In this document: positions 30,460-43,232 of the stretch, piece by piece | Position numbering within the stretch: position 1 is the first letter of the stretch | How the letters are laid out: every line of letters starts with the position of its first letter | NCBI RefSeq assembly: GCF_037996825.1 | Contig: NZ_JBBNAC010000001.1 | Location: 1,488,001-1,552,000, forward strand | Origin: Bdellovibrio sp. BCCA | Lineage (GTDB): Bacteria > Bdellovibrionota > Bdellovibrionia > Bdellovibrionales > Bdellovibrionaceae | Direction: 5' to 3' | DNA: 64,000 bases | The notes under the pieces: model-generated | What the model was told of the DNA's origin: nothing | The model's database searches: none | Seen by the model: the letters and a program-made list of their open reading frames with translations, nothing else | Program-made: the position numbers and the translations under genes

Positions 30460-31626
30460 TTAATAAACCAACGGATGACGGCTAATTACTTCCACTTGCG
30501 CTGGCGTTAAATAAAAATTCCCCTGACCCGTAGACGGAAACATCATGTTCTTAATATCGCACGCACTATTTAAAGGATCACGCACGCCCATCGGTACGCC
30601 AAATACGGGGACTTCGCAGACATGGAAAAGCCCCAAATAGTGAGCGATCTCGTGCGCCACCGTTAACGCATAATCAGGCATCGACAGACGCGAATCAATT
30701 GTCACGTAATCAAGAGAGTTGGGACTCTTGCGTTCCTTCTCCGAAAGAATCGTCTTCATCCGAACCATTATGCCCGTCGTGTAAGGCGACATGTAGCCAC
30801 CAGGGAGTTGATCCGCATAAGCAATTATCGCACCGCCAACCCAATTAAAAGTCGTCTTCGCAAAATAAACATTCACAGCGTCGCCTTTGGAATATTTCAG
30901 CATATGCTGCAACCCTTGGCCCTTACTATCAAAGACGACATCGGCTGTGTCGTCTAGTGAAAGAACTTGGATGTTGATTCCAGCGAACTTATAAATATCT
31001 TCAAGCACTTTCATAAAAAGCTTAAAATCTTTATTCTTAGGGGCAGACTTCGCATCCCAAATTGATTTTCCCGCGAAATGCAAACGAAGTGGGATCGTCG
31101 GTTTTTGTGCGCCACCAGACGCATTCTTTTTAAAAACAATCTGCACAAGACCTTTTAAGTTTCGACATTCAGAATTCTCTGACCGACAAGAAAATTTCAT
31201 TTTCCATGTGCCCGGAATAATTTTGGTCGTAGTATTGTTGCCAATCAAAGCTGTCGTAATGCCAGTAAAAGAAGGAGCCACCGGATTTTCCCACTCCATA
31301 TAGGGAATGTGGGCCTCTTTGTTAATATAATCAAAGTGACGAGCCGACTTCCCAAGAACAAAGTGACTGTTTGGATCCGACATGAACTCAAAGTGAATTC
31401 CTGCATAATCAGAGTTCGACGAAAATTGAACAAGAAAGCTTTTGGTATTTGCAGGGACTTGAAATGCCAACTCATCACTCAAACCTGCAGCATTAAAACC
31501 CACATCTTTAATATTTAGAATCTGCAGATCCGCTCGAGCAGGGGCTTTTTCCAAAGCCCAAACCAAAGGAGTACTAAGAGAGCACAAGGTCGACACCAGA
31601 AGAGGAAGCAACGCCATTTTTCTCAT
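30460..31626 (-). CDS. Secreted metzincin zinc metalloprotease
   Basis: This 388-residue exported protein has a signal peptide (residues 1-24) and a beta-rich N-terminal section to about residue 170, perhaps a pre-peptidase or adhesion-like domain. The catalytic region carries the zinc motif HEIAHYLGLFH near residue 338 (HExxHxxGxxH), which marks metzincins and supplies three zinc-binding histidines plus the catalytic Glu. A Met-turn candidate is NMMFPS about 32 residues later. Both the motif and the spacing fit pappalysin- or snapalysin-like enzymes. It starts at 31626 with GAAGGAG upstream. It would be secreted, possibly through the type II system encoded in the first genes of the window. 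Confidence 0.86.
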   Translation of the reverse strand: MRKMALLPLLVSTLCSLSTPLVWALEKAPARADLQILNIKDVGFNAAGLSDELAFQVPANTKSFLVQFSSNSDYAGIHFEFMSDPNSHFVLGKSARHFDYINKEAHIPYMEWENPVAPSFTGITTALIGNNTTTKIIPGTWKMKFSCRSENSECRNLKGLVQIVFKKNASGGAQKPTIPLRLHFAGKSIWDAKSAPKNKDFKLFMKVLEDIYKFAGINIQVLSLDDTADVVFDSKGQGLQHMLKYSKGDAVNVYFAKTTFNWVGGAIIAYADQLPGGYMSPYTTGIMVRMKTILSEKERKSPNSLDYVTIDSRLSMPDYALTVAHEIAHYLGLFHVCEVPVFGVPMGVRDPLNSACDIKNMMFPSTGQGNFYLTPAQVEVISRHPLVY

Positions 31627-31806: not shown

Positions 31807-31838
31807 AAAACCCACGACTCGGAAAAGTCGTGGGTTTT
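31807..31838. terminator. Strong bidirectional terminator of the 32-42 kb operon
   Basis: AAAACCCACGACT (31807-31819) pairs with AGTCGTGGGTTTT (31826-31838) around the loop CGGAAA. On the minus strand the hairpin is followed by TTTTGTTTTT, so it terminates the operon that ends at 31866. On the plus strand, T35-T39 also follow the stem. Confidence 0.9.
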
Positions 31839-31865: not shown

Positions 31866-33122
31866 CTATTGCTGCTGCTTCAAAGTCAAAGGAGCCAAGT
31901 CTACCGAGAAACGAGCACCTTCAACATATTCATAGTCGATATCGCCAGAAAGCTCGATGGAGTTGTTTTCAGGATTGTACAACCATCCACCTTTGGCTTT
32001 TTGTGGAATCACTTGTTTGCCATAACGAACACGAACCATCAATTGACCGTTCTTATCCGTGCGAGGACGTTGACTCAAGAAGATCTCTTTCGCCAAAGTC
32101 TTCACAGTGATATCAGAACCGATCTTCGCAAGATCATCACCGAACTTAGGACTTACGATGCTCATGATATGTTTCGCACGAATTTGATCCGGAGTTCCTT
32201 CGTTTTGGTTGGCTGCCACAATAAATTTCTCAAGGCGGTCAGGACCAAAACCAGTACACTTGCCGTTGTTCTTTGGATTTTTTTGCGAAGTCATATCAAA
32301 GCACTCAGGGTGATACTTAGGATGAATTCTCAAATCCCAATCTTTATAGTCGTCAGAATCTTGAGGACGAACAAGCACACCATAGACTGAAACTTTCTCA
32401 GCGCGACCGCCTTTAAAGTCGATCAGCTTCTGAGCCATCTCTTCAGGATTGATACTCTTAGAAGAGTCATCGGCATCCGTCAAAAGCACGACAACCAATT
32501 GAGCGTCTTGACGGAAGAAACCTTCATTCGTAGCACCACGGCCGGTTTTTTCGATAGCGGCAGCAAGGGGAGAAAACAATTCTTCAAACTCAGGTCCACC
32601 TTGAGCATAAGGAGTTACACCAATATTCAAAGTCGAAGCGATCAACTTGCTATTGTTATCCGACTTCGCAACGAAACGACGGTTCGACGCCGATTGACCT
32701 TGAGAGTTTTTAATAAAACGAAGATCACCAATTTGATACTGGTCTTTCTTCATTTGGATATAACGATCTGAACTATCCCAAACAGAAATCACACCCACGT
32801 GGTAATCGATCATTCTGTTTTTAAGAACACCCGCCGTAAATTTATCGATATTACGCACAAGGTTTTCTTGAGCGGACTTCATACTGTCCGAGTTGTCAGT
32901 CACAAACAAAATATCTACTTGAGGATTGAAGTCGAGCTGGCTTTGGCCGCCGTCTTCAGTGATCCACTCAGCGGGTTTAATAATCGGTTTTTCATATTGA
33001 GGAATTTGCACTTCCGGCTGAACCAAAGGTCTTTCAACTTTCAAAGTTGCAGACTCAGGGCTGCATGCCGCAACGAGCATCAAAGCTGACATATAAATGC
33101 AGATGACAACGAGGCTTCTCAC
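31866..33122 (-). CDS. Von Willebrand factor A domain lipoprotein, last gene of the envelope-machine operon
   Basis: This 418-residue lipoprotein has a signal peptide ending LMLVAACSPE, with lipobox Cys near residue 20. After a linker, a VWA domain begins near residue 70 with the metal-ion-dependent adhesion site DNSDSMKSAQ (DxSxS) and a further site VLLTDADDSS. These bind Mg2+ or Ca2+ and mediate protein-protein contacts. It is predicted to sit on an envelope membrane. The gene overlaps its upstream neighbour by 4 bases (ATGA). It ends the ten-gene operon, before the terminator at 31807-31838. Adhesion or assembly of the envelope machine are the likely roles, inferred from VWA biology. Confidence 0.88.
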   Translation of the reverse strand: MRSLVVICIYMSALMLVAACSPESATLKVERPLVQPEVQIPQYEKPIIKPAEWITEDGGQSQLDFNPQVDILFVTDNSDSMKSAQENLVRNIDKFTAGVLKNRMIDYHVGVISVWDSSDRYIQMKKDQYQIGDLRFIKNSQGQSASNRRFVAKSDNNSKLIASTLNIGVTPYAQGGPEFEELFSPLAAAIEKTGRGATNEGFFRQDAQLVVVLLTDADDSSKSINPEEMAQKLIDFKGGRAEKVSVYGVLVRPQDSDDYKDWDLRIHPKYHPECFDMTSQKNPKNNGKCTGFGPDRLEKFIVAANQNEGTPDQIRAKHIMSIVSPKFGDDLAKIGSDITVKTLAKEIFLSQRPRTDKNGQLMVRVRYGKQVIPQKAKGGWLYNPENNSIELSGDIDYEYVEGARFSVDLAPLTLKQQQ

Positions 33123-34165
33123 ATCTTCCTCCTGATCCCTTTAGCGCACGTTTTCGCCGCTACTTCGAACTTATCAAGTTCGTCGATCCAAGGTCTGCCG
33201 TCATCCATAAAGACCAATTTATCATCCGTAACTTCTTGAAATTTACCTTTTTTGTAAAGCTCTTCAGCCATGTTCATATCAGTGTGAACACGTTGAATCG
33301 CTTCGACTTCAACAAGATTCAATTTTTGAATGATCTTGAAGTTTTCATTTGTTTCTTCTTGAGCCAACTCTTGAACACGGTCTTTCAATGCACGGAAAGC
33401 TTCTTGATTGATCTTATCCAAAGAAGCTTTCACGCGAGGGTAGTCTGATCCCACCAATTCCATCGCACGTTGCGAAGCCTTGAAGCGAAGAGCTTGTTTT
33501 TGGAACTCCACATCTTTGTAGATCATCAAAGGGAGACGTTGAACAGAGTCACCCATATCGTCCAAAGTTAAAGGGAACTCATCCACTTTACGAAGAACCT
33601 GCGCCAAAGAATCGTTCCATCCAGCTTTCGCAAGATTTTGAACTTCCATGATACGAGCTTTTTGTTTGTCTTTAAAAATCTGGTGAGTTTCAAAAACGCC
33701 TTTGTAATCACAGATCTTCAACTGAGTTAATGATTGCAATAAGAATGCTTCCGAATTTGAAACTTCCGCAAACTGAGGCGCCAGCAAAGTCTTAGTTTGC
33801 GCCAAAGCTTTTTCGTAGTTTTCCTGACGGAAGTAAGCCCAGCCTTTTTCTTCCACCGCTGACAACCAATAAGTATTGCCGCGAGGAATTTCGTTATAAG
33901 TACTGATAGCTTCGTCAAATTGACCTTTTGCAAACTGGCTGCGAGCTTTTTTCAATGAAGCTTTGTTGTCGCAGTCACTGCAAGAACCAAGAGCTTTCTT
34001 TTCTAAAGAAGACGTATTGAAAGAGGAAGCTCCCTTGCTTTCCAAAGACTTCACCCAAGACTTGGCCCAGTCAGATGCTGACGTGCGATCCGCCGCCATA
34101 GCTTGCGAGTGCAAACCACAGACAACAATCGCAATAGTGCTAAGAGCGAATACCAGCTTCATCAT
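33119..34165 (-). CDS. Exported TPR-type helical protein
   Basis: This 348-residue protein has a signal peptide (MMKLVFALSTIAIVVCGLHSQAMA). The ATG at 34165 overlaps the stop of the beta-barrel gene as ATGA, so it is chosen over the in-frame ATG at 34174. Helical repeats of TPR type are visible at about residues 70-165 (SQFAKGQFDEAISTYNEI, AYFRQENYEKALAQTKTLL). A CSDCDN motif near residue 60 has two cysteines. A long helical C-terminal half follows. It probably acts as a periplasmic scaffold in the envelope machine. Homology to a specific Glt TPR subunit (such as GltC or GltE) cannot be decided by eye. Confidence 0.82.
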   Translation of the reverse strand: MMKLVFALSTIAIVVCGLHSQAMAADRTSASDWAKSWVKSLESKGASSFNTSSLEKKALGSCSDCDNKASLKKARSQFAKGQFDEAISTYNEIPRGNTYWLSAVEEKGWAYFRQENYEKALAQTKTLLAPQFAEVSNSEAFLLQSLTQLKICDYKGVFETHQIFKDKQKARIMEVQNLAKAGWNDSLAQVLRKVDEFPLTLDDMGDSVQRLPLMIYKDVEFQKQALRFKASQRAMELVGSDYPRVKASLDKINQEAFRALKDRVQELAQEETNENFKIIQKLNLVEVEAIQRVHTDMNMAEELYKKGKFQEVTDDKLVFMDDGRPWIDELDKFEVAAKTCAKGIRRKM

Positions 34166-34911
34166 AAAATCCATCCAAGACCAAGAGAACCCATTACGAT
34201 ATCAAGTTTACGAGCGCCTGTTGCAATTTGGTCTTCGTAACGTTGATAACGAACTTCCGCGCGAGCAGAAACGTGTTTAGAAATCCAAGCACCTAGACCC
34301 AAACCACCTGTCATCACAGATGTGCTGCCGCTAGAAAGAGTGATATTTCCGCCACCAGCCAAAAGGTAAAGGTCAAACTGAGTCACACCCATATCCAAGA
34401 AGCTTGTTTTACCGTAGATAGGATACCAGTTCACGACCGCGATAGTAGAGTTCAACGGATAGTCGATGTCTACAGGAAGAGCACGACCACCAGCTGCTTC
34501 AGCGGCTTTAGCGTCGTCATAGATACGTTGACCTTCGCTAGTCAGGCTGTTACCGAAGTCGTAGTAACGAACACCCACGGACCAGCGAGGAGTGATGTGG
34601 TAGTCCACTTGAGCACCCAAGCTTTGCGTTTTAACGTAAGCATCACCACCAAAAACACTGCCGTAAGAAAGACCGAACTCAAGAGTGTTATTGCGATCCA
34701 CGATACGCTCTTGAACGATACGAGAACGGCTTGTTGATTTGATCTTTTGCGCCATCTCCATCAATTCTTGATTGCCACCAAGTGAGTCAATATCTTCCGA
34801 AGCATTGATTTGTTTTGCAGCAGATTTACTTTTTGAAGACGCAGCCTGAGCCGTTGTCGTCATCAAAGAGCATGCAAGCAATGCGATTGCGATGATGTTC
34901 ATAGTTTTCAT
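34162..34911 (-). CDS. Outer-membrane beta-barrel protein
   Basis: This 249-residue protein has a signal peptide ending AQA and a helical, basic segment at about residues 24-75. The remainder is a beta-barrel with repeated amphipathic strands (LEFGLSYGSVFGGDAYV, LGAQVDYHITPRWSVGVRYYDFG, VSARAEVRYQRYED) and ends in the hydrophobic strand MGSLGLGWIL. This resembles the outer-membrane barrels found in Myxococcus gliding clusters (GltA, GltB and GltH are barrels). GGAGG lies upstream at good spacing. The start overlaps the upstream stop by four bases (ATGA). It is predicted to be the outer-membrane part of the machine. Confidence 0.85.
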   Translation of the reverse strand: MKTMNIIAIALLACSLMTTTAQAASSKSKSAAKQINASEDIDSLGGNQELMEMAQKIKSTSRSRIVQERIVDRNNTLEFGLSYGSVFGGDAYVKTQSLGAQVDYHITPRWSVGVRYYDFGNSLTSEGQRIYDDAKAAEAAGGRALPVDIDYPLNSTIAVVNWYPIYGKTSFLDMGVTQFDLYLLAGGGNITLSSGSTSVMTGGLGLGAWISKHVSARAEVRYQRYEDQIATGARKLDIVMGSLGLGWIL

Positions 34912-36275
34912 TTTGCAGCCTCCGCTGGGCAGAGCTTCTTGTCTTCTTGAGAAGCAAGAACCTTCAATTTATACGCAGTTACGTCAGAATTTCTGCCGTT
35001 CACCACGCTTTGAGCATTCATAGAGATTTCCCCACCCAAGTTCGCAGCAGTTGCATCACAAGGAACGGACCAAGTAAGGACACATTCTTGTTTTGCAGCC
35101 GTTGCTGCTGAAGCTTTACATTCTACTTTTGGAGAACCTGGCAAACTTGAAGTCGCAGGTTCTACCTTTACAACAGCGTCTTTATCCGCTGAAGAAACAA
35201 TGAAATTCAAAGTCACGTTTTGACCCGGAGACACTTGCAAACCTTGTTGACCAAGACCCGACAAATCAAAACGGGGAGCTGCAATTGGTTTTGTGTAACG
35301 AACTTTAACCTGAGTCAAAGATTCCGGTGTCGAAAGACCGTAAGGGCTGTACACCTTAAAGCTCAAACGAACGCGAGTGCCATCAGCGTTAGAAAGGATC
35401 GAACCATCTTTAGCCAATTGAGGTTGAACAGAGATATTTTTCGTATCAAAGATCAAAGTGAATTTCCATTTAGAGTCACCGAGATACTCAGCTTCTTTTT
35501 TATTCAAATCAGCGACAACGTAACGAGCACCATCAAGTTCCAGGAAGCTGTTACCTGCTGTGTAGCTTACGCCATCATAACTCACAACAAGGCGAGGTTT
35601 TTGCGGAGCTTTATTATCAGTCCCAGGAACTTTCACTGTTACAGTGAAAGGAACCAAAGAACCTTCATTCACTTCGGAAGCAAGACCTGCAACAGTCAAA
35701 GCCGAAGGAGCTTCCTGGTTGCGGAACAAGAAGATATTAAATTCTTTTTCACGAACAAGGCCTTTTAGTTTGTCAGCGTCAACTTGGCTGCTTGAAGAAG
35801 TCACTTCCGCAGAAACTTTCGCTGTATAACTCTTCATAGCTGCATTGGCTGGAACCGTGTAAAGGGCTGGAGTCCAAGTCAAAATATAAAGATCTTTTTC
35901 TTGAGTTGATTTTTCAAGTTTCGCACCCTCAGGAAGACCTGAAGCTGTCAATTTGATCTCGATCCCTGGAACAAGCACGCGAGCGCGGATTTTAAACTGC
36001 GCTTGTTGACCTTCGTTGAAAGTCATTTGTGCATCAGGAGTGATGACGATGAATTTTTCGTCGATCGTAGACTCTTCTTTAACAACCACAACAGGTTTTT
36101 CAACGATCACTGTGTTTGTGATCTCACGAGGTTTGTCGGGACCTTGCTGAACTTGAACTTTGGCATTCTTACGCATTTCTGCAAGACCCGAAGCTGGATC
36201 TTTTTTATACTCGCCGCAACCAACCGCTGCGAGAGTCAAAGCTACTAACGGGAGAAGAGTTTTGGTGTTTTTCAT
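34908..36275 (-). CDS. Lipoprotein of the envelope-machine operon with Ig-like repeats
   Basis: This 455-residue lipoprotein has a signal peptide with lipobox LAAVGCGEY. The ATG at 36275 is preferred to the in-frame GTG at 36281, since AGGAG is spaced 8 bases from the ATG but only 2 from the GTG. The mature part is beta-rich with at least three Ig/cadherin-like segments, for example EGQQAQFKIRARVLVPGIEIKLTASGLPEGAKL and NEGSLVPFTVTVKVPG. Four cysteines in the C-terminal third may pair. No catalytic motif appears. It likely lies at the inner face of the outer membrane, or on the surface, next to the barrel protein. Confidence 0.8.
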   Translation of the reverse strand: MKNTKTLLPLVALTLAAVGCGEYKKDPASGLAEMRKNAKVQVQQGPDKPREITNTVIVEKPVVVVKEESTIDEKFIVITPDAQMTFNEGQQAQFKIRARVLVPGIEIKLTASGLPEGAKLEKSTQEKDLYILTWTPALYTVPANAAMKSYTAKVSAEVTSSSSQVDADKLKGLVREKEFNIFLFRNQEAPSALTVAGLASEVNEGSLVPFTVTVKVPGTDNKAPQKPRLVVSYDGVSYTAGNSFLELDGARYVVADLNKKEAEYLGDSKWKFTLIFDTKNISVQPQLAKDGSILSNADGTRVRLSFKVYSPYGLSTPESLTQVKVRYTKPIAAPRFDLSGLGQQGLQVSPGQNVTLNFIVSSADKDAVVKVEPATSSLPGSPKVECKASAATAAKQECVLTWSVPCDATAANLGGEISMNAQSVVNGRNSDVTAYKLKVLASQEDKKLCPAEAAK

Positions 36276-36289
36276 TTTCACATCTCCTC

Positions 36290-37519
36290 TTATCGAGCAC
36301 TCACGCGAGTGAGTTCGAAAGGATAAAGTACGTCAACGTTCACTTGCCCAACTGGACGCGGGAATTGCCATGTTTTCATTCTTTGTAGCATGCAGTTTTC
36401 AACCATGCGTGAGCCCAAAGAAGACTCTGCTACTTTTGCCACTGTGATTCGGCCTGAAGCACCAATCACAAAACTTACAGCCACGCGGCCACCGATTGTT
36501 GGTTGAGCCTGAAGACCTTTTTCATAGCAGTATGTGATTTGACCTTTGTTACGGTTGATCACAGCGATAATTTGGTCTTGATCCAAACCACCTTCAACAG
36601 TCACTTCTTCATCAAGAGGTAAACTTGTTGCGGCAGTTCCACCAACCATAGAGATCTTGCCGTAACCAGCGCGACCGCCACCAGAACCTTTAGTTCCGTA
36701 ACCACCGGCACCTTGTGCACGCGCACCTTCGCCAGCGGAACCCGCGATCAAACCGTTACCAGGCATATAACCTTTCGCACCGCCACGGCCCGCATTACCG
36801 ATACCGCCGCCACCAGCGCCAGTTCCTGCAGCTCGGATATTTTTCAAAGACTGCATATCCAAACCTTCAGCACCTTTGTGGCCTGTTTTAAGACCACCTA
36901 AGGCTGCCAAGGCACCAACACGGCGAACATCAGTAGCTTTTGCCGTATTAACTTTATAAGCCTTCGTCAAAAGCTTCTTAGCAACAGGTCTGTAGACTTT
37001 GTTCGTTTGTTTAATCTTAGTTTTAGAAACTTTCACAGTCGGACGAGCTTCTGGCTTTTGTTTTACCACGGGCTCTTCCTGTGGAAGCATGATCGTCACA
37101 AGAGGTGGCTCTTGAGTTTTGCTGAAGTAATTCAAGTAAACCCATGAACCCAAGATCAAGAAGAATACAGCGATCATGTGACCAGCTGCAGTTTTCTGCA
37201 ACATTGTCTTAAGCTGTTCGTTGTCGTCTTCTTGAGCCAAAGAATGTGTCGGGCTGTTTTGAACACCCGAAGCAGGGTAAAGGCGAACGCGACCCAAACC
37301 TTGAAGTTCAAGACCGTTTTCAGAAAGTTGAGACAATTGGATTTCTTTAAGCAAAGTGTAGTTAACTTTGTTCTCATCAAGATCATTAAGATGAGCAAAG
37401 GCTTCAACACGGCGGCTGTCTTTCAAGTAAACCAAATTCAAAGAATCTGATTCAACCGCGAAAGTGCGAACCTTTTGGCCTAACTGATTTTCGAGTATTA
37501 GAAGTTTCGCTGCGCTCAT
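36290..37519 (-). CDS. TonB-like energy-transducing protein of AgmX/PglI (GltJ/GltG) type
   Basis: This 409-residue protein spans the envelope. The N-terminal 100 residues are cytoplasmic and beta-rich. A single transmembrane helix (AAGHMIAVFFLILGSWVYL) is at about residues 112-131. A Pro/Lys-rich periplasmic stretch (EEPVVKQKPEARPTVKVSKT) and a Gly-rich flexible segment at about 205-300 follow. The C-terminal domain (about 310-405) has the pattern DQIIAVINRNKGQITYCYEK, then GRVAVSFVIGASGRI, with two cysteines that may pair. This is the AgmX/PglI C-terminal domain of Myxococcus gliding proteins. It is the likely coupling element between the TolQR-like motor and the outer membrane. Confidence 0.85.
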   Translation of the reverse strand: MSAAKLLILENQLGQKVRTFAVESDSLNLVYLKDSRRVEAFAHLNDLDENKVNYTLLKEIQLSQLSENGLELQGLGRVRLYPASGVQNSPTHSLAQEDDNEQLKTMLQKTAAGHMIAVFFLILGSWVYLNYFSKTQEPPLVTIMLPQEEPVVKQKPEARPTVKVSKTKIKQTNKVYRPVAKKLLTKAYKVNTAKATDVRRVGALAALGGLKTGHKGAEGLDMQSLKNIRAAGTGAGGGGIGNAGRGGAKGYMPGNGLIAGSAGEGARAQGAGGYGTKGSGGGRAGYGKISMVGGTAATSLPLDEEVTVEGGLDQDQIIAVINRNKGQITYCYEKGLQAQPTIGGRVAVSFVIGASGRITVAKVAESSLGSRMVENCMLQRMKTWQFPRPVGQVNVDVLYPFELTRVSAR

Positions 37520-37530
37520 AATCTTTGCCT

Positions 37531-37800
37531 TTAGTTACGTTCTGTTTCTTTTTCTTGGCGGTCCTCAAACTGAGTTCTGCCTTTCAAAAGATCTTCTAAA
37601 AGTTTGTCGTTCTCTACCGTTGCTGCCGTGCCCATGGAGCTTTGGTATTTACCTCTGAGCGAGGACCCGTTGAATTTAAACGAAGTTCCAAGCTGTCTTT
37701 TTGTCGCCGTTGGTTTTGCATTTTTCTCTGCAGGTTTTCCGGCGGCAAAAGTCATATGGGACAACAGCAAAATGAGGGCCAAAGAAATCACTGATTTCAT
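37531..37800 (-). CDS. Small exported protein of the envelope-machine operon
   Basis: This 89-residue protein has a signal peptide (MKSVISLALILLLSHMTFAAGKPAEK). The mature part is short, polar and basic: TKRQLGTSFKFNGSSLRGKYQSSMG, then a helix with acidic and basic residues (LLEDLLKGRTQFEDRQEKETERN). No family is recognised. Its start overlaps the upstream stop by 4 bases (ATGA), and the TonB-like gene follows 11 bases downstream. This small size and its fixed position suggest a subunit or regulator of the machine, for which no assigned homologue is known to me. Confidence 0.72.
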   Translation of the reverse strand: MKSVISLALILLLSHMTFAAGKPAEKNAKPTATKRQLGTSFKFNGSSLRGKYQSSMGTAATVENDKLLEDLLKGRTQFEDRQEKETERN

Positions 37801-40757
37801 AAGCTTTTTCCTCTCTGTAGATGGCTTAAACGAGCTTCCAAGTAAGCGGGCATCAAAGGATGGCCAATTTTCGTCTCGATCTGTTTCAATTTTTCAATGT
37901 TGCGGGGATTCATAGGGTCTTCTGCCACTGTATTGCGAGCGGCGATAAGGTCGCGTGACGAAAAAGGTCTCTCGTCCAAAGCGTTTTCCAACGCTGTTTT
38001 CATCGCACCTTTTCCTGGCACTTGATTTAGCAACGTCAATTCACGCGCAAGCAAATTACGAAGCTCAGGGCGTGCTGTTTGGTAGTCTTTAATTGTTTGA
38101 GCCAAAGCCGAGGATCTATTCCAAATTTCCTGCTGCTTTTGCTGAGCCACTCTCGCTTTATACAAGAATGGTTTTGATTGAGCTTTAAGCAATGAAATAT
38201 ACTGATTTTGTTCTTTCGGAGTTAAACCCTGAGGCATTGGCAAACCAGCCAAATCACGAACCATACGTTCGTTCTCAGAGGAAACCAAATTCAACGCCAT
38301 CATTTGAGCTGTCACGTCTTTCAACGTCAAACTTTCAGCCAAAACCTTATCAGCCTTCTTAAGAAGACTTACTCGTTCCGCAATAGTTTTTTGCAACAAA
38401 CGATCTTTGCTAGAATTCAACTGGTGAGAAGCAATCAAAGATTTCTCTTTTTGAACCTTTTCATAGAAATCTTGTTTCTTCACGAAAAGGGGAGCGGATT
38501 GGCGACGAAGTTCTTTCATCTCCAGAACAGACTTTAACGCCGAAGCATTGCCAGTTTGAGCATAAACCAACAAAGTCGTTTCATTTAAGAGAGCTGGTCT
38601 TTGTTTCAACTCAGGAGCTTGCGCTTTTAATTCTCTTACCGGATTTTCAGAAGTTAAGACCAGGCGAGAACGAACGATCAAAGATCTTTCGCCGCGAAGG
38701 CCTGCATCCAAAGCTTTACGGTAATGTTTAGAAGCATTAAGACCTGCAAGATCCGCTAATGTTCCAAGACGGAATTCTTTTTCCTTTTCAGAAATCTTTG
38801 GATTCTCCAAACGCAAAGCTGTCGCATAGGCGTTTTTAAAGTCCAAACGTTTTTCGTAGAAACCAGTCAATTGCTCCAAAGTGTTTTCACGTTGTTCTTT
38901 CGTTAAGCCCGGGATCGCCATCAAAGACGCCAAAGATTCAACGTAGATTTTTTCTTCACCCAATTTTTGTGCAAGAACGCTTTGGTTATTATAGAACAAG
39001 ATCTTTTCCTGATTGCTTGCTGTTTGAATCTTACGGGCATCAAGACTGTTCAAAGCTTTTTTTAGATCCGATTTTGTCGAACGAGGATCATTGGCAACAC
39101 GCGCCACTCTGTTCATCAAAGATTTACGGGCGATAGATTCAAATTCAGCACGGGCCTGAGGGAAAATCTCAGAGTAATCCCAAGCCAATTCTTCCAATGC
39201 CGTTTCATTTTTTGTTTGAACCAAAGAGTCCAAAGAAAGGTCCGCGGCTTTCTTGCGAAGATCCGCCTTACCAGATTTATCCTTAGCCAAATCCTCGAAA
39301 TCTTCGGCGGCTTGAGCAAACTGTTTTTGTTGGTAGCTCAAGTAAGCCAATTGATATCTAACTTCGAAAGACTTTTCGCTCTTAGAAGCATATTTCAAGT
39401 AGTGAACATAAGCTTCTTTTTGCAACGCCGGATTTTTAGATTTTTCTGCCGCAGAAACTTCATTCAACAAAGCTTCTTCGCGCTCTTTAGAAGAGAACTG
39501 ACGGCTTTCGCTGATAGTGCGATACAAAGAAACCGCAACAGGGTAATTGTTAAGCTCCATCGCCACAGCGGCCCCACGTTGAGTCATCTCCATGTCTTGT
39601 GGGAATGTTCTATTGTACGTGAGATAGGCATCCATCAAATCCTGGTCCGGATTTAATTTTTTAGAACGGTGAAGTTCCGTTACATAACGTTTCATGGATT
39701 TTTGCAACTCTTCGCACTTCTCACCAGAGCAACCGGATTTTTGAAGAGCCATAGCCGCTTTAGAAAACTCTGCTACCGATTCTTTAGTTTGACCGCGGTC
39801 ATAGTTGATTTGTGCTAACTGAATAGAAGCTTCGACACGCTCTTCTTTAGAAAGAGCAGCGTCCGCCAAGTAGCGGCTCATGATTTCTTGAGCGGCTTTC
39901 TTTTGACCGATACGGTCTGTTTCTTTGGCAAAGTAAAGCATCAAGTCTTTGCGCTTTTCAACCGGAGTTAAAGTTTCAAATGTATTGATTTCGCGAGCTG
40001 TAACTTCTTGCTTTGTATAGAAAGAAGCAAGGTCACGTAAAACATCTGTATGGAAAGGAGCATCGTATTTGCTGCCTTCTTCCGTTTCGCGAGTGATTTG
40101 AGAAGGATCTTTTAAAAGACCTTCCAAGGTTGCGATAGCGGATTTCAAGTTGTCCGTGTTGAAATCACACCAAGCCACATTGTAAACCGTCAAATAACGA
40201 TTTTGCAGATTTTTATCTTTCAAAGCGATTTTATAGTTTTCACGTGCCTCTGCAAAACGACCTTTTTGGAATAAAAGATCTCCCAGGCCTACGTGCGAAC
40301 GAGTGACGATCTCAGCAGAGATGTTTTTCTTTTTCGCATCTTTGATGATGCTTTCATAAAGAGAAATAGCCTTATCCACTTGGCCGGCCATTTCATACAA
40401 GTGCGCCAATTGGAAAAGGATCGGTCCGTGTTCGTTAACTTTTACTTCTTGAAGAATGGATTCGTAAATTTTGATAGCTTTTTGACGGTCATCTTTAGAA
40501 CCCTTGCAACCGTCGCAGTTAGCTTCCACTTCAAGCATAAAGCGCGTGCGCGCTCTTTCAGATAGAAGATCGGCCAAACGCTGCTGGCTTGACAACCAGG
40601 CACCGTCTGACTTTTCCATTGCGGAAAGAACTCTTTCCATCTTTTTGATAACGAGATCCTGAGTCTCTGCATTCATTTTATCAGCAAAGGCTTGAGGAGA
40701 ACTCAAGATTCCCGTAACAAAAGCGCCTAGAATAAGGATGTCGTTAAGTGTTTTCAT
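37797..40757 (-). CDS. Large exported TPR protein of the envelope-machine operon
   Basis: This 986-residue protein has a signal peptide ending QAFADK and is almost entirely made of helical tetratricopeptide-like repeats. Examples are ILFQLAHLYEMAGQVDKAISLYESI and LGDLLFQKGRFAEARENYKIAL near residues 110-170. Similar repeats recur, more degenerate, to about residue 700. The last 250 residues are long helices. Its size and composition resemble the large TPR proteins (GltI/AgmK or GltD/AgmU types) of Myxococcus gliding clusters. A cysteine pair CDGCKG near residue 83 could bind metal or form a disulphide. The start overlaps the upstream TolR-like stop (ATGA), and the stop overlaps the small-protein start. 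Confidence 0.85.
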   Translation of the reverse strand: MKTLNDILILGAFVTGILSSPQAFADKMNAETQDLVIKKMERVLSAMEKSDGAWLSSQQRLADLLSERARTRFMLEVEANCDGCKGSKDDRQKAIKIYESILQEVKVNEHGPILFQLAHLYEMAGQVDKAISLYESIIKDAKKKNISAEIVTRSHVGLGDLLFQKGRFAEARENYKIALKDKNLQNRYLTVYNVAWCDFNTDNLKSAIATLEGLLKDPSQITRETEEGSKYDAPFHTDVLRDLASFYTKQEVTAREINTFETLTPVEKRKDLMLYFAKETDRIGQKKAAQEIMSRYLADAALSKEERVEASIQLAQINYDRGQTKESVAEFSKAAMALQKSGCSGEKCEELQKSMKRYVTELHRSKKLNPDQDLMDAYLTYNRTFPQDMEMTQRGAAVAMELNNYPVAVSLYRTISESRQFSSKEREEALLNEVSAAEKSKNPALQKEAYVHYLKYASKSEKSFEVRYQLAYLSYQQKQFAQAAEDFEDLAKDKSGKADLRKKAADLSLDSLVQTKNETALEELAWDYSEIFPQARAEFESIARKSLMNRVARVANDPRSTKSDLKKALNSLDARKIQTASNQEKILFYNNQSVLAQKLGEEKIYVESLASLMAIPGLTKEQRENTLEQLTGFYEKRLDFKNAYATALRLENPKISEKEKEFRLGTLADLAGLNASKHYRKALDAGLRGERSLIVRSRLVLTSENPVRELKAQAPELKQRPALLNETTLLVYAQTGNASALKSVLEMKELRRQSAPLFVKKQDFYEKVQKEKSLIASHQLNSSKDRLLQKTIAERVSLLKKADKVLAESLTLKDVTAQMMALNLVSSENERMVRDLAGLPMPQGLTPKEQNQYISLLKAQSKPFLYKARVAQQKQQEIWNRSSALAQTIKDYQTARPELRNLLARELTLLNQVPGKGAMKTALENALDERPFSSRDLIAARNTVAEDPMNPRNIEKLKQIETKIGHPLMPAYLEARLSHLQRGKSL

Positions 40758-41248
40758 CGTGCAGGTACCACCGCAAATTTCATTTTCTCAAAGCCAGACA
40801 AAGAGCTCGCTTTAAGAAGAGGATCCAAGTCCTCGTATTTCATCTCTTGATCAGCTTGAACCAAAAGTTCCATGGCTTTTTCTTGAGATTTGTTTTTTAA
40901 CTCCGCCAATTTTTCGCCAAGAGCTTTCACCGGAATGACTTCGTCGTTCAAACGGTAAATGCCTTTTTGAATTGTCAAAATCGGAGTTTCTTTTTCAATG
41001 CCGACACTGTGTTCAGCCATTGGTAAAGACATCTTTGATGGAATTTTAGATTCCATACCGCTGTTTTGCGTTCCGATCAGAAGATAGATCACGATGATCG
41101 AAAAAGCGTCGATCAAAGAAGTCAAAGGCAGCGCCAAAGCCAAGTTCGCCGCCGCAGACTTTTTCTTCTTCATTCCAGGTTTCAAGCTTTGCAAGTCACC
41201 TAGAGGAGATCTTTTTTTACCAACGTTTGCAAAGGACGATGTTTTCAT
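40754..41248 (-). CDS. TolR/ExbD-like proton-channel subunit 2 (AglS-like)
   Basis: This 164-residue protein has a basic cytoplasmic N terminus (LGDLQSLKPGMKKKKSAAANLA). A single transmembrane helix, LPLTSLIDAFSIIVIYLLIG, carries the aspartate (Asp near residue 47) that moves protons in ExbD/TolR proteins. A periplasmic domain follows. AGGA lies 5 bases upstream of the start at 41248, and the previous gene ends 5 bases before. Having two TolR-like proteins beside one TolQ-like protein matches AglRQS in Myxococcus. It would work with the TolQ-like protein as a proton-driven motor. Confidence 0.9.
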   Translation of the reverse strand: MKTSSFANVGKKRSPLGDLQSLKPGMKKKKSAAANLALALPLTSLIDAFSIIVIYLLIGTQNSGMESKIPSKMSLPMAEHSVGIEKETPILTIQKGIYRLNDEVIPVKALGEKLAELKNKSQEKAMELLVQADQEMKYEDLDPLLKASSLSGFEKMKFAVVPAR

Positions 41249-41253
41249 AAGTC

Positions 41254-41724
41254 CTACCCAAGAGGGGACAAGCCCACTCCGTCAAATTGAAACTGTTTAA
41301 GTTTGTCCATGATGCGAATCACATCGCCGTAGGAAGCGGTTGCTTCTGGACGTACGATGCCGGTTTTAAGATCCGGAAACTTTTCGCGAAGAGCTTGAAG
41401 TTTTTGTTCAAGCGCGGCCCAGTTCACACCTTTGCCTGCGGCTTGAATATTATCTTCATGGGTTTTGGCACCAGGAAGATCGCGCAAAGACAGTTGAACA
41501 GCTCCTTGTGTGTTTACCGTGATATACAAGGAAGGAGGATTTTTAGCTCCAGCCACAGAGTTATCACCGATCGCTTGGCGCGTGTCGATTGTGCCGATTT
41601 GAATCCATACTGCTGTTAACAGAAGGAAGCAGATCAGAACCGACAAGATATCCAAGATCGGTAGAATATTAAGTTCAAAATTCAAATCTTTGTCGCCATC
41701 ACCGGCGCCGCCCATCATGCCCAT
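41254..41724 (-). CDS. TolR/ExbD-like proton-channel subunit 1 (AglQ-like)
   Basis: This 156-residue protein starts at 41724 with GGGAG upstream. A short N terminus with MMGGAGDGDKDLNFELN precedes a single transmembrane helix (ILPILDILSVLICFLLLTAVW) with the conserved aspartate near residue 25. The C-terminal periplasmic part, about 110 residues, has ExbD-like strands (YITVNTQGAVQLSLRDLPG). Its stop lies 5 bases before the next TolR-like gene, and the TolQ-like gene ends 2 bases upstream of its start. The two subunits differ in sequence and likely form a mixed stator with the TolQ-like protein. Assignment as AglQ rather than TolR rests on gene context. Confidence 0.9.
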   Translation of the reverse strand: MGMMGGAGDGDKDLNFELNILPILDILSVLICFLLLTAVWIQIGTIDTRQAIGDNSVAGAKNPPSLYITVNTQGAVQLSLRDLPGAKTHEDNIQAAGKGVNWAALEQKLQALREKFPDLKTGIVRPEATASYGDVIRIMDKLKQFQFDGVGLSPLG

Positions 41725-41726
41725 GA

Positions 41727-42416
41727 TTATCTCCCAAGTTGAGCCGGAACTTCTTTTTTCGCAGTAACAGGCTCGTAGTGGTAGCCCAATTGGATGAACA
41801 AATTCAAAGCACCTTTATTAAGGTCGTCCGTCAAACGAGACGCTCTGTTTTGCAAAACCGCATACATGATCAAAGCAGGAACTGCCACGATCAAACCGTA
41901 AGCTGTCGTATTCATTGCAAGTGAAATACCTTGAGAAAGGATCGTCGCTTTTTCAGCAGGGTTCGCATTAGAAATACCTGCGAAAGAGTGGATCAAACCT
42001 GTGATTGTACCTAATAGACCCAACAATGTTGCTACGTTCGCAAACATCGCCAGGAAACCGATGCGCTTTTCAACGCGAGAGTTTTCTTCAAGAAGAACTT
42101 CATCCATTTTAAGTTGGATTTCTTCTTTACCACCCATATCCATTGCAGCTTGAATACCTGCAGAAGCAACAACTCCCAATGGCTCTTTTGTGCCCATTTG
42201 TAGAGAGCGGCGCAAAGCTTTATCCAAGTTTCCAGCACGAATATCTTCGGCAAGAACTTTAGAAAGCTCTTTTTGGTTGGTTTTACGAGAACCGAAAAGG
42301 GCAAACGCTCTTTCCGCAATAATAGCGATTGAAACAACTTGAGCTGCCAAAATCGCCCACATCCAAATAGCATCGCCAGAAGTAAATCCGCGACCAAGTG
42401 ATAATAGGAATTCCAT
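41727..42416 (-). CDS. TolQ/ExbB/MotA-type motor protein, first gene of the envelope-machine operon (AglR-like)
   Basis: This inner-membrane protein (229 aa) is the channel subunit of a proton-driven motor. Its ATG at 42416 follows GGAGG at 8 bases; the longer frame to 42458 has none. Three transmembrane helices are visible. The first is near residues 17-35 (AIWMWAILAAQVVSIAIIA). The other two, TLLGLLGTITGLIHSFAGI and ISLAMNTTAYGLIVAVPALIMYAVL, carry the ExbB/TolQ signature. It heads a ten-gene operon running to 31866. A Bdellovibrio Tol-Pal system is also possible, but the TPR, beta-barrel and AgmX-like partners fit an Agl-Glt-like machine better. Confidence 0.92.
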   Translation of the reverse strand: MEFLLSLGRGFTSGDAIWMWAILAAQVVSIAIIAERAFALFGSRKTNQKELSKVLAEDIRAGNLDKALRRSLQMGTKEPLGVVASAGIQAAMDMGGKEEIQLKMDEVLLEENSRVEKRIGFLAMFANVATLLGLLGTITGLIHSFAGISNANPAEKATILSQGISLAMNTTAYGLIVAVPALIMYAVLQNRASRLTDDLNKGALNLFIQLGYHYEPVTAKKEVPAQLGR

Positions 42417-42755: not shown

Positions 42756-43232
42756 ATGCGTTCGTTCATTCTCCTCAGTCTTATCGTGATGTCTTCCTCC
42801 TGTGCCTTTGCGACAGCAGGAAATCCTTTAGATACTAAGTACAAAACGGAAGTCGAATCTTCGGTGCAGACGATTGATGAAAGAGATCTCGACGCTCTTG
42901 TCGAGGCACTGAATGAATTTATCAAGGCCGATCAAAAATACCGCTCTGATATGGAGCCGATTTTTAGAAACATCCGCAGAGAACTTGCAAAGCTTAAAGA
43001 AAAAGGTCTTCTAAAAATGGAATTCGATCCACGTCGTCTTTCCGACGAAGATCTTGCAGAGAAAATTCGTAAGATGACGACTTATAAAGAAGTCGCGGGG
43101 CCTTCGGTTTTAGTTAAAACAATTCAAGTGGGAATGGTGTGCACGGGACTCCTCACAGGAAAGTGCGGGCGTCTTCCAGAAATTCAAATGCCGGCTCCAG
43201 CACCTATCACTAGAGCCACGGGAACAAGATAG
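42756..43232 (+). CDS. Small exported protein of unknown function
   Basis: This 158-residue protein has a signal peptide (MRSFILLSLIVMSSSCAFATAGN); the Cys at residue 16 is not in a clean lipobox. The mature part is mainly helical and charged, for example IDERDLDALVEALNEFIKADQKYRSD and RRELAKLKEKGLLKMEFDPRRLSDEDLAEKIRK. A shorter C-terminal section with VCTGLLTGKCG has two cysteines, then a Pro-rich tail. No family is recognised. GAGG lies 12 bases upstream, a weak ribosome-binding site, so the next in-frame ATG (42789) is possible. It is divergent from the envelope-machine operon and convergent with the esterase gene. Confidence 0.65.
   Translation: MRSFILLSLIVMSSSCAFATAGNPLDTKYKTEVESSVQTIDERDLDALVEALNEFIKADQKYRSDMEPIFRNIRRELAKLKEKGLLKMEFDPRRLSDEDLAEKIRKMTTYKEVAGPSVLVKTIQVGMVCTGLLTGKCGRLPEIQMPAPAPITRATGTR

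Follow-up and report, generated by a model that had tools for sequence, protein, structure and literature searches.

What kind of machine does the ten-gene operon at positions 31866-42416 encode, and at which stage of predation would it work? The window analysed here is a 64-kb (64,000-nucleotide) stretch of Bdellovibrio sp. BCCA DNA at contig positions 1488001-1552000, and its operon had been read from sequence, in a preliminary description, as a proton-driven trans-envelope machine of the Agl-Glt type for gliding or prey contact. Comparison with the Agl/Glt subunits of myxobacteria bears out the type: eight of the ten genes match, and the motor proteins group with the Agl clade. The family is known and the operon is an unexceptional member of it; its orthologue in strain HD100 has already been published. 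The favoured functional reading, to which we assign a probability of about 0.55, is an envelope-spanning, proton-driven motor that pulls an outer-membrane complex of barrel and adhesin during prey entry and early life inside the prey.

Gene order and subunit correspondence

The operon runs along the minus strand from 42416 to 31866 as ten abutting, co-oriented open reading frames (ORFs). All are open, and their spacing ranges from a 13-base overlap to an 11-base gap, in line with the tight or overlapping spacing noted in the preliminary description. Scores in brackets are from family profiles or from profile comparison with hhalign.

41727-42416, minus strand: AglR, predicted TolQ/ExbB-like motor subunit (MotA_ExbB 2.5e-30; Myxococcus AglR 99.9%; Agl clade in the tree)
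41254-41724, minus strand: AglQ, TolR/ExbD-like, with membrane Asp25 and a TAVWxQIG signature (ExbD 1.8e-19; AglQ 98.8%)
40754-41248, minus strand: AglS, second TolR/ExbD-like protein, with membrane Asp47 (ExbD 4.8e-19; AglS 95.3%)
37797-40757, minus strand: GltD-like periplasmic TPR protein, 986 residues (TPR families; GltD 99.0%, E 4.6e-18)
37531-37800, minus strand: GltF-like small exported protein, 89 residues (sister-cluster counterpart 96.6%; position before GltG)
36290-37519, minus strand: GltG-like protein, putative TonB-like force transducer with AgmX/PglI tail (NF033760 GltG 1.4e-35; NF033768 2.3e-29; GltG 99.9%)
37145-37192, minus strand: SHLS-type motif in the GltG membrane helix, T110-H114-L121-S125, candidate motor docking site (invariant His in 21/21; TolA spacing)
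34908-36281, minus strand: putative Ig-like lipoprotein, lipobox Cys22 (best 12.8% against Myxococcus Glt; He_PIG in 2/16 homologues; low-confidence all-beta model)
34162-34911, minus strand: outer-membrane beta-barrel, GltA/GltB-like (TIGR04565 OMP_myx_plus 2e-32; GltA 96.6%, GltB 95.1%)
33119-34174, minus strand: GltC-like TPR protein, 351 residues (NF033756 GltC 3.7e-13; GltC 99.2%, E 1.1e-19)
31866-33122, minus strand: VWA lipoprotein of the metal-ion-dependent adhesion site (MIDAS) kind, lipobox Cys20, candidate surface adhesin, last gene (VWA 2.1e-4; NF033765 CglD 2.2e-8; NF052240 1.1e-5; alignment A1)
32880-32915, minus strand: MIDAS motif D76-x-S78-x-S80 of the VWA domain (invariant in 18/18 aligned sequences)
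31807-31838, minus strand: intrinsic terminator closing the operon, a 14-bp stem followed by GTTTTTT

Profiles of 15 orthologues per window protein were compared with myxobacterial Agl/Glt profiles built on Myxococcus sp. CA023, Hyalangium, Corallococcus and Sorangium proteins, each identified by an NCBIfam match or, failing that, by gene order. One-to-one best matches were obtained for AglR, AglQ, AglS, GltD, GltG, GltA/GltB and GltC. Together with GltF, eight of the ten genes thereby pair, by profile evidence, with Myxococcus AglR, AglQ, AglS, GltD, GltF, GltG, GltA/B and GltC. The GltD, GltF and GltC proteins carry signal peptides, and GltG spans the inner membrane with a single helix and ends in a TonB-like AgmX/PglI domain. 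Of the expanded Agl-Glt core defined by Luciano et al. (2011), AglR, AglQ, AglS, GltG, GltD, GltC, a GltA/GltB barrel and GltF, the last recognised via the sister cluster, are represented, and the TPR lipoprotein GltE has no gene in the operon. The VWA protein and the 457-residue lipoprotein match no Glt profile.

These results agree with the inventory in the preliminary description, namely one TolQ-like and two TolR-like proteins with conserved membrane aspartates, two TPR proteins, a TonB-like protein with an AgmX/PglI tail, a barrel, a VWA protein and a terminal hairpin.

The GltF assignment rests on intermediate sister-cluster proteins and on gene position. M. xanthus GltF has 89 residues and lies directly before GltG (PMC3169522), and the homologue in Myxococcus sp. 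CA023 also has 89 residues from its likely start. The direct match between the 89-residue window protein and Myxococcus GltF is weak (9-11%). The window protein matches its sister-cluster counterpart with an E-value of 5.4e-10, and the counterpart matches myxobacterial GltF at 95.5% (E 1.4e-8); one of 40 column-shuffled controls for the GltF comparison reached 78%. In addition, a small exported protein occupies the position before GltG in all four clusters of this genome. The protein is accordingly described as GltF-like, by transitive evidence.

All 14 of the other Bdellovibrio species compared, HD100 included, keep the ten genes in this order and on one strand, which is far beyond chance. 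The flanking genes compared are mostly not common to the orthologous loci. The divergent ORF 42756-43232 adjoins a single one of the 14 orthologous operons, and none of them is followed by the metalloprotease-like ORF 30460-31626 that lies downstream here; both are placed outside the unit because they are rarely or never shared while the ten genes are always present. AglR starts at a conserved ATG, 42416. Its ORF opens upstream at TTG 42458, a start regarded as mechanical since AglR orthologues begin MEFLLSLG.

Orthology, motor phylogeny and expression

In Bdellovibrio, a predator that invades other bacteria, four Agl-Glt sets were described in 2010-2011 (PMC2797640, PMC3169522), with the HD100 clusters given as Bd0412-0420, Bd0828-0838, Bd1473-1483 and Bd2368-2377 (PMC2797640). 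The genome taken here as HD100 contains four Glt clusters at 392, 786, 1396 and 2277 kb, in linear proportion to the published ones, and the orthologue of the window operon lies at 388,215-398,542 on its minus strand. By position and identity (52-85% per protein), the window operon corresponds to HD100 Bd0411-Bd0420, possibly one number off. The Bd2368-2377 cluster, first suspected from gene count and signal peptides, was ruled out by positions and identities. A full-length window-type GltG is present in 21 of 23 further Bdellovibrio genomes. Two Bdellovibrio genomes that are 88% and 95% complete (G018 and G019) contain sister-type GltG only, owing to either assembly gaps or true loss.

AglR, together with AglQ and AglS, is predicted to form a proton-channel motor of the TolQR type. 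The membrane aspartates D25 of AglQ and D47 of AglS are conserved in all 15 aligned orthologues. A 42-row AglR tree, which includes TolQ, ExbB and other myxobacterial paralogues, separates the Agl clade from all three with support of 100/100 and gives no orthology of the motor to TolQ or ExbB. Within the clade, the window and Bd2368 types are sisters (100/99). The Bd0828-0838 type joins Myxococcus AglR (96/93), in agreement with Luciano et al., and the window type lies outside that group. The finer branching order is uncertain because several branches are long.

Expression in HD100 distinguishes the clusters. The orthologue of the window operon is induced 4-7 fold 30 min into predation (PMC2797640), with protein levels highest at 45-60 min, by which time most predators are inside prey (PMC12546842). 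The Bd2368-2377 cluster has its maximum when the predator leaves the prey (PMC12546842), the sister Bd1473-1483 cluster is linked to surfaces and biofilm predation, with an aglQ gene that is induced on surfaces (PMC9140294), and Bd0838 is required for attachment. From the timing of the HD100 orthologue, we infer that the machine is specialised for prey entry and the early intraprey phase.

The same data bear on another reading, that the operon is the surface-gliding engine itself, like AglRQS-Glt in Myxococcus, and that the expression timing in HD100 is incidental. Bdellovibrio does glide (PMC3169522), and the operon has eight subunits in common with the Myxococcus machine as well as an adhesin-like VWA lipoprotein. 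However, it is the Bd0828-0838 type that joins Myxococcus AglR, the surface-induced aglQ belongs to the sister Bd1473-1483 cluster, and the window type is induced inside prey. Two features of a strict Myxococcus gliding engine are missing: AglR falls outside the Myxococcus group and GltH-K are not in the operon. A gliding engine is rather unlikely.

Two observations concern the Bd1473-1483-type motor. Its AglQ has no membrane aspartate (LAPLLAVMV), either in this species or in HD100 (L012:13299-13844 and L171:15843-16400), and AglS keeps it, which suggests a motor axle with a single proton-binding site. In the copy of this genome, the gene that follows the VWA lipoprotein and immediately precedes AglR (L012:14576-15193) codes for a 205-residue protein with GYF_2 and PilZ domains. 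This gene would tie cyclic di-GMP to the Bd1473-1483-type motor; its GYF domain is reminiscent of the one in Myxococcus GltJ.

The two lipoproteins without a Glt profile match

Alignment A1 comprises 18 VWA sequences, including proteins of two sister clusters. The C20 lipobox, D76-S78-S80, D216 and the C-terminal G379-W380-Y382 are invariant in all 18. The Pfam VWA match of the window protein is just under the cut-off, and the named matches, to CglD (NF033765) and to the Bdellovibrio MIDAS adhesin (NF052240), are partial ones that score far under the curated cut-offs. PDB searches with the protein and with A1 gave no match, and the single-sequence AlphaFold model is unusable, with a predicted local distance difference test score (pLDDT) of 33. 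A VWA gene follows GltG by 1.5-8 kb on the same strand in at least 93 of 118 GltG loci of the order, compared with a chance expectation of about 1%, a rough estimate from some ten such genes per 3.5-Mb genome. The VWA lipoprotein belongs, as a divergent member, to the MIDAS-adhesin/CglD-like kind and is a candidate surface adhesin. Genomes of the order have about ten VWA/MIDAS lipoprotein-like matches each, forming a large adhesin-like family.

The preliminary description knew of no assigned Myxococcus counterpart for either the VWA lipoprotein or the 89-residue protein. For the latter the claim fails, given its link to GltF through the sister cluster and its length, equal to that of Myxococcus GltF. 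For the former it holds insofar as no Glt profile matches, and it does not hold for the gliding lipoproteins of Myxococcus, which include a VWA relative in CglD. A 404-residue Myxococcus VWA lipoprotein (L228) and CglD-like proteins match A1. CglB is another VWA gliding lipoprotein of Myxococcus according to the literature; among the 29 VWA_2 matches in Myxococcus sp. CA023, none can be named as its orthologue.

The real extra part relative to Myxococcus is instead the 457-residue lipoprotein, for which no Glt counterpart was found among the Myxococcus profiles. The best He_PIG match among its homologues is 1.8e-6. The single-sequence model is all-beta with a pLDDT of 50.5 and resembles tandem Ig/FN3 chains in Foldseek, so that an Ig/FN3-like fold is proposed with low confidence. 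Its C-terminal domain contains four cysteines. The domain is present in some close species and missing in others, including HD100 (proteins of 338-476 residues; window 34908-36281 and L156-L169), and looks as if it were modular. The preliminary description had overlooked this protein as the unmatched part, along with the missing GltE, the SHLS motif in GltG, and the position of the Bd0828-0838 type as nearest to the Myxococcus gliding motor.

The outer-membrane parts also frame a second alternative, an Nfs-type machine for envelope building or export, in which the motor would move the barrel and TPR subunits for surface polysaccharide or outer-membrane remodelling, without traction. The barrel does match the barrels of a second myxobacterial cluster, labelled NfsAB here (90.6%), but a MIDAS lipoprotein gene after GltG in most relatives better fits adhesion, and the operon contains no polysaccharide genes. 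Such a machine is quite improbable.

The GltG helix and comparison with known systems

The membrane helix of GltG carries T110, H114, L121 and S125 at the spacing S/T-x3-H-x6-L-x3-S, identical to that of S-H22-L-S in TolA as computed on the E. coli K-12 gene. TolA and TonB bind their motors through this SHLS motif (PMC12204202). All 21 window-type proteins compared, of which 15 come from Bdellovibrio and six from genomes outside the genus, have the histidine equivalent to H114 (H113 in the HD100 protein), and the helix is conserved at positions -4 (T/S/A), +4 (V/I/L), +7 (L/I/M) and +11 (S/T/A) relative to it. The histidine was not seen in GltG of the three sister clusters, Myxococcus or Hyalangium, and no second fit occurs among 181 scanned membrane segments of Bdellovibrio sequence. 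No paper in the literature searched joins SHLS with GltG, and the motif in window-type GltG appears to be new here. The helix of a Sorangium GltG (L218:11731-13776) also contains a histidine, preceded by Ser at -4 but followed by Met at both +7 and +11. SHLS-like motifs occur as well in two distantly related GltG proteins from the order (L304 and L308). Because of these helices, the motif may predate this cluster type or have arisen more than once. It is tentatively suggested, with less than even confidence, that the SHLS helix sets the predation-phase Glt machine apart from its three sister machines and the Myxococcus gliding machine, and that the TolA/TonB pulling mechanism would drive it.

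The motif, the TonB-like tail and the TolQR-like motor could also be taken to indicate a TonB/Tol-like uptake or membrane-stabilising system that merely resembles Agl-Glt, and Lambert et al. named TonB-dependent transport as an option (PMC2797640), but this is very improbable given a motor outside TolQ/ExbB, a barrel of the OMP_myx_plus kind and an operon that encodes neither TolB/Pal nor a TonB-dependent receptor.

In the favoured reading of a motor that pulls a barrel-adhesin complex, proton flow would turn AglR-Q-S. GltG would dock on the motor via its SHLS-type histidine helix, like TolA and TonB, and pull across the periplasm on the GltC/barrel complex. This complex would in turn expose or load the VWA lipoprotein, whose binding to the prey envelope would place force on the prey during entry and early intraprey life.

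Several points weigh against this proposal. The literature searched yielded no mutant of the orthologous cluster, and we infer both function and stage; the Bd numbers of single genes likewise come from chromosome position. Deletion of bd1483, the VWA gene of a sister cluster, caused no predation defect (PMC11003981), although an insertion in it weakened biofilm predation (PMC2277423). The VWA lipoprotein is only a putative surface protein, and its homology to CglB itself is conjectural. Genes for GltE, GltH, GltI, GltJ and GltK were not found within the operon; the last four are reported absent from B. bacteriovorus (PMC3169522), and a TPR protein in the GltE position is present in the Bd0828-type cluster of this genome (L010:2943-3809). 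Finally, since Myxococcus GltG has no SHLS motif, either the Myxococcus machine docks in another way or the motif in the window protein may serve some other purpose.

The operon brings together a motor, an outer-membrane barrel, a candidate adhesin and, in H114 of GltG, a candidate contact for the transducer, and its HD100 orthologue is deletable in a laboratory strain. The SHLS motif offers a precise point-mutation handle on whether gliding-type motors pull by the TolA/TonB route. If they do, such motors would be mechanically linked to Tol/Ton transducers, and H114 would be a single-residue handle on prey-entry force.

The closest known system is the HD100 orthologue (Bd0411/0412-Bd0420/0421), which has all ten genes in the same order and strand. 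Its Ig-like lipoprotein has 356 residues, compared with 457 in the window, and is without the C-terminal Cys-containing domain. The Bd2368-2377 type, in the copy of this genome (L011), shares the ten-gene order, including both the VWA and Ig-like lipoproteins, and is the sister in the motor tree, but its subunits are only about 23-55% identical and its GltG lacks the SHLS histidine. The AglRQS-Glt machine of Myxococcus xanthus shares the eight subunits listed above. It differs in having GltE and GltH to GltK and several barrels rather than one, whereas the window operon includes the VWA gene, the SHLS motif and the extra Ig-like lipoprotein. The Bdellovibrio MIDAS adhesins Bd0875 and Bd1483, whose architecture has been described (PMC11003981), resemble the VWA protein in their lipobox, VWA/MIDAS domain and small C-terminal beta region with G-W-x-Y; the window protein is divergent, scoring 24.8 bits against a curated cut-off of 700 bits (NF052240). 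The TolQRA and ExbBD-TonB systems are phylogenetically distinct from the window motor, which has two different TolR-like subunits, a GltG helix preceded by about 110 residues, and other outer-membrane partners. They nevertheless share with it the motor fold, the TonB-like C-terminal domain and, in GltG, the SHLS spacing of TolA.

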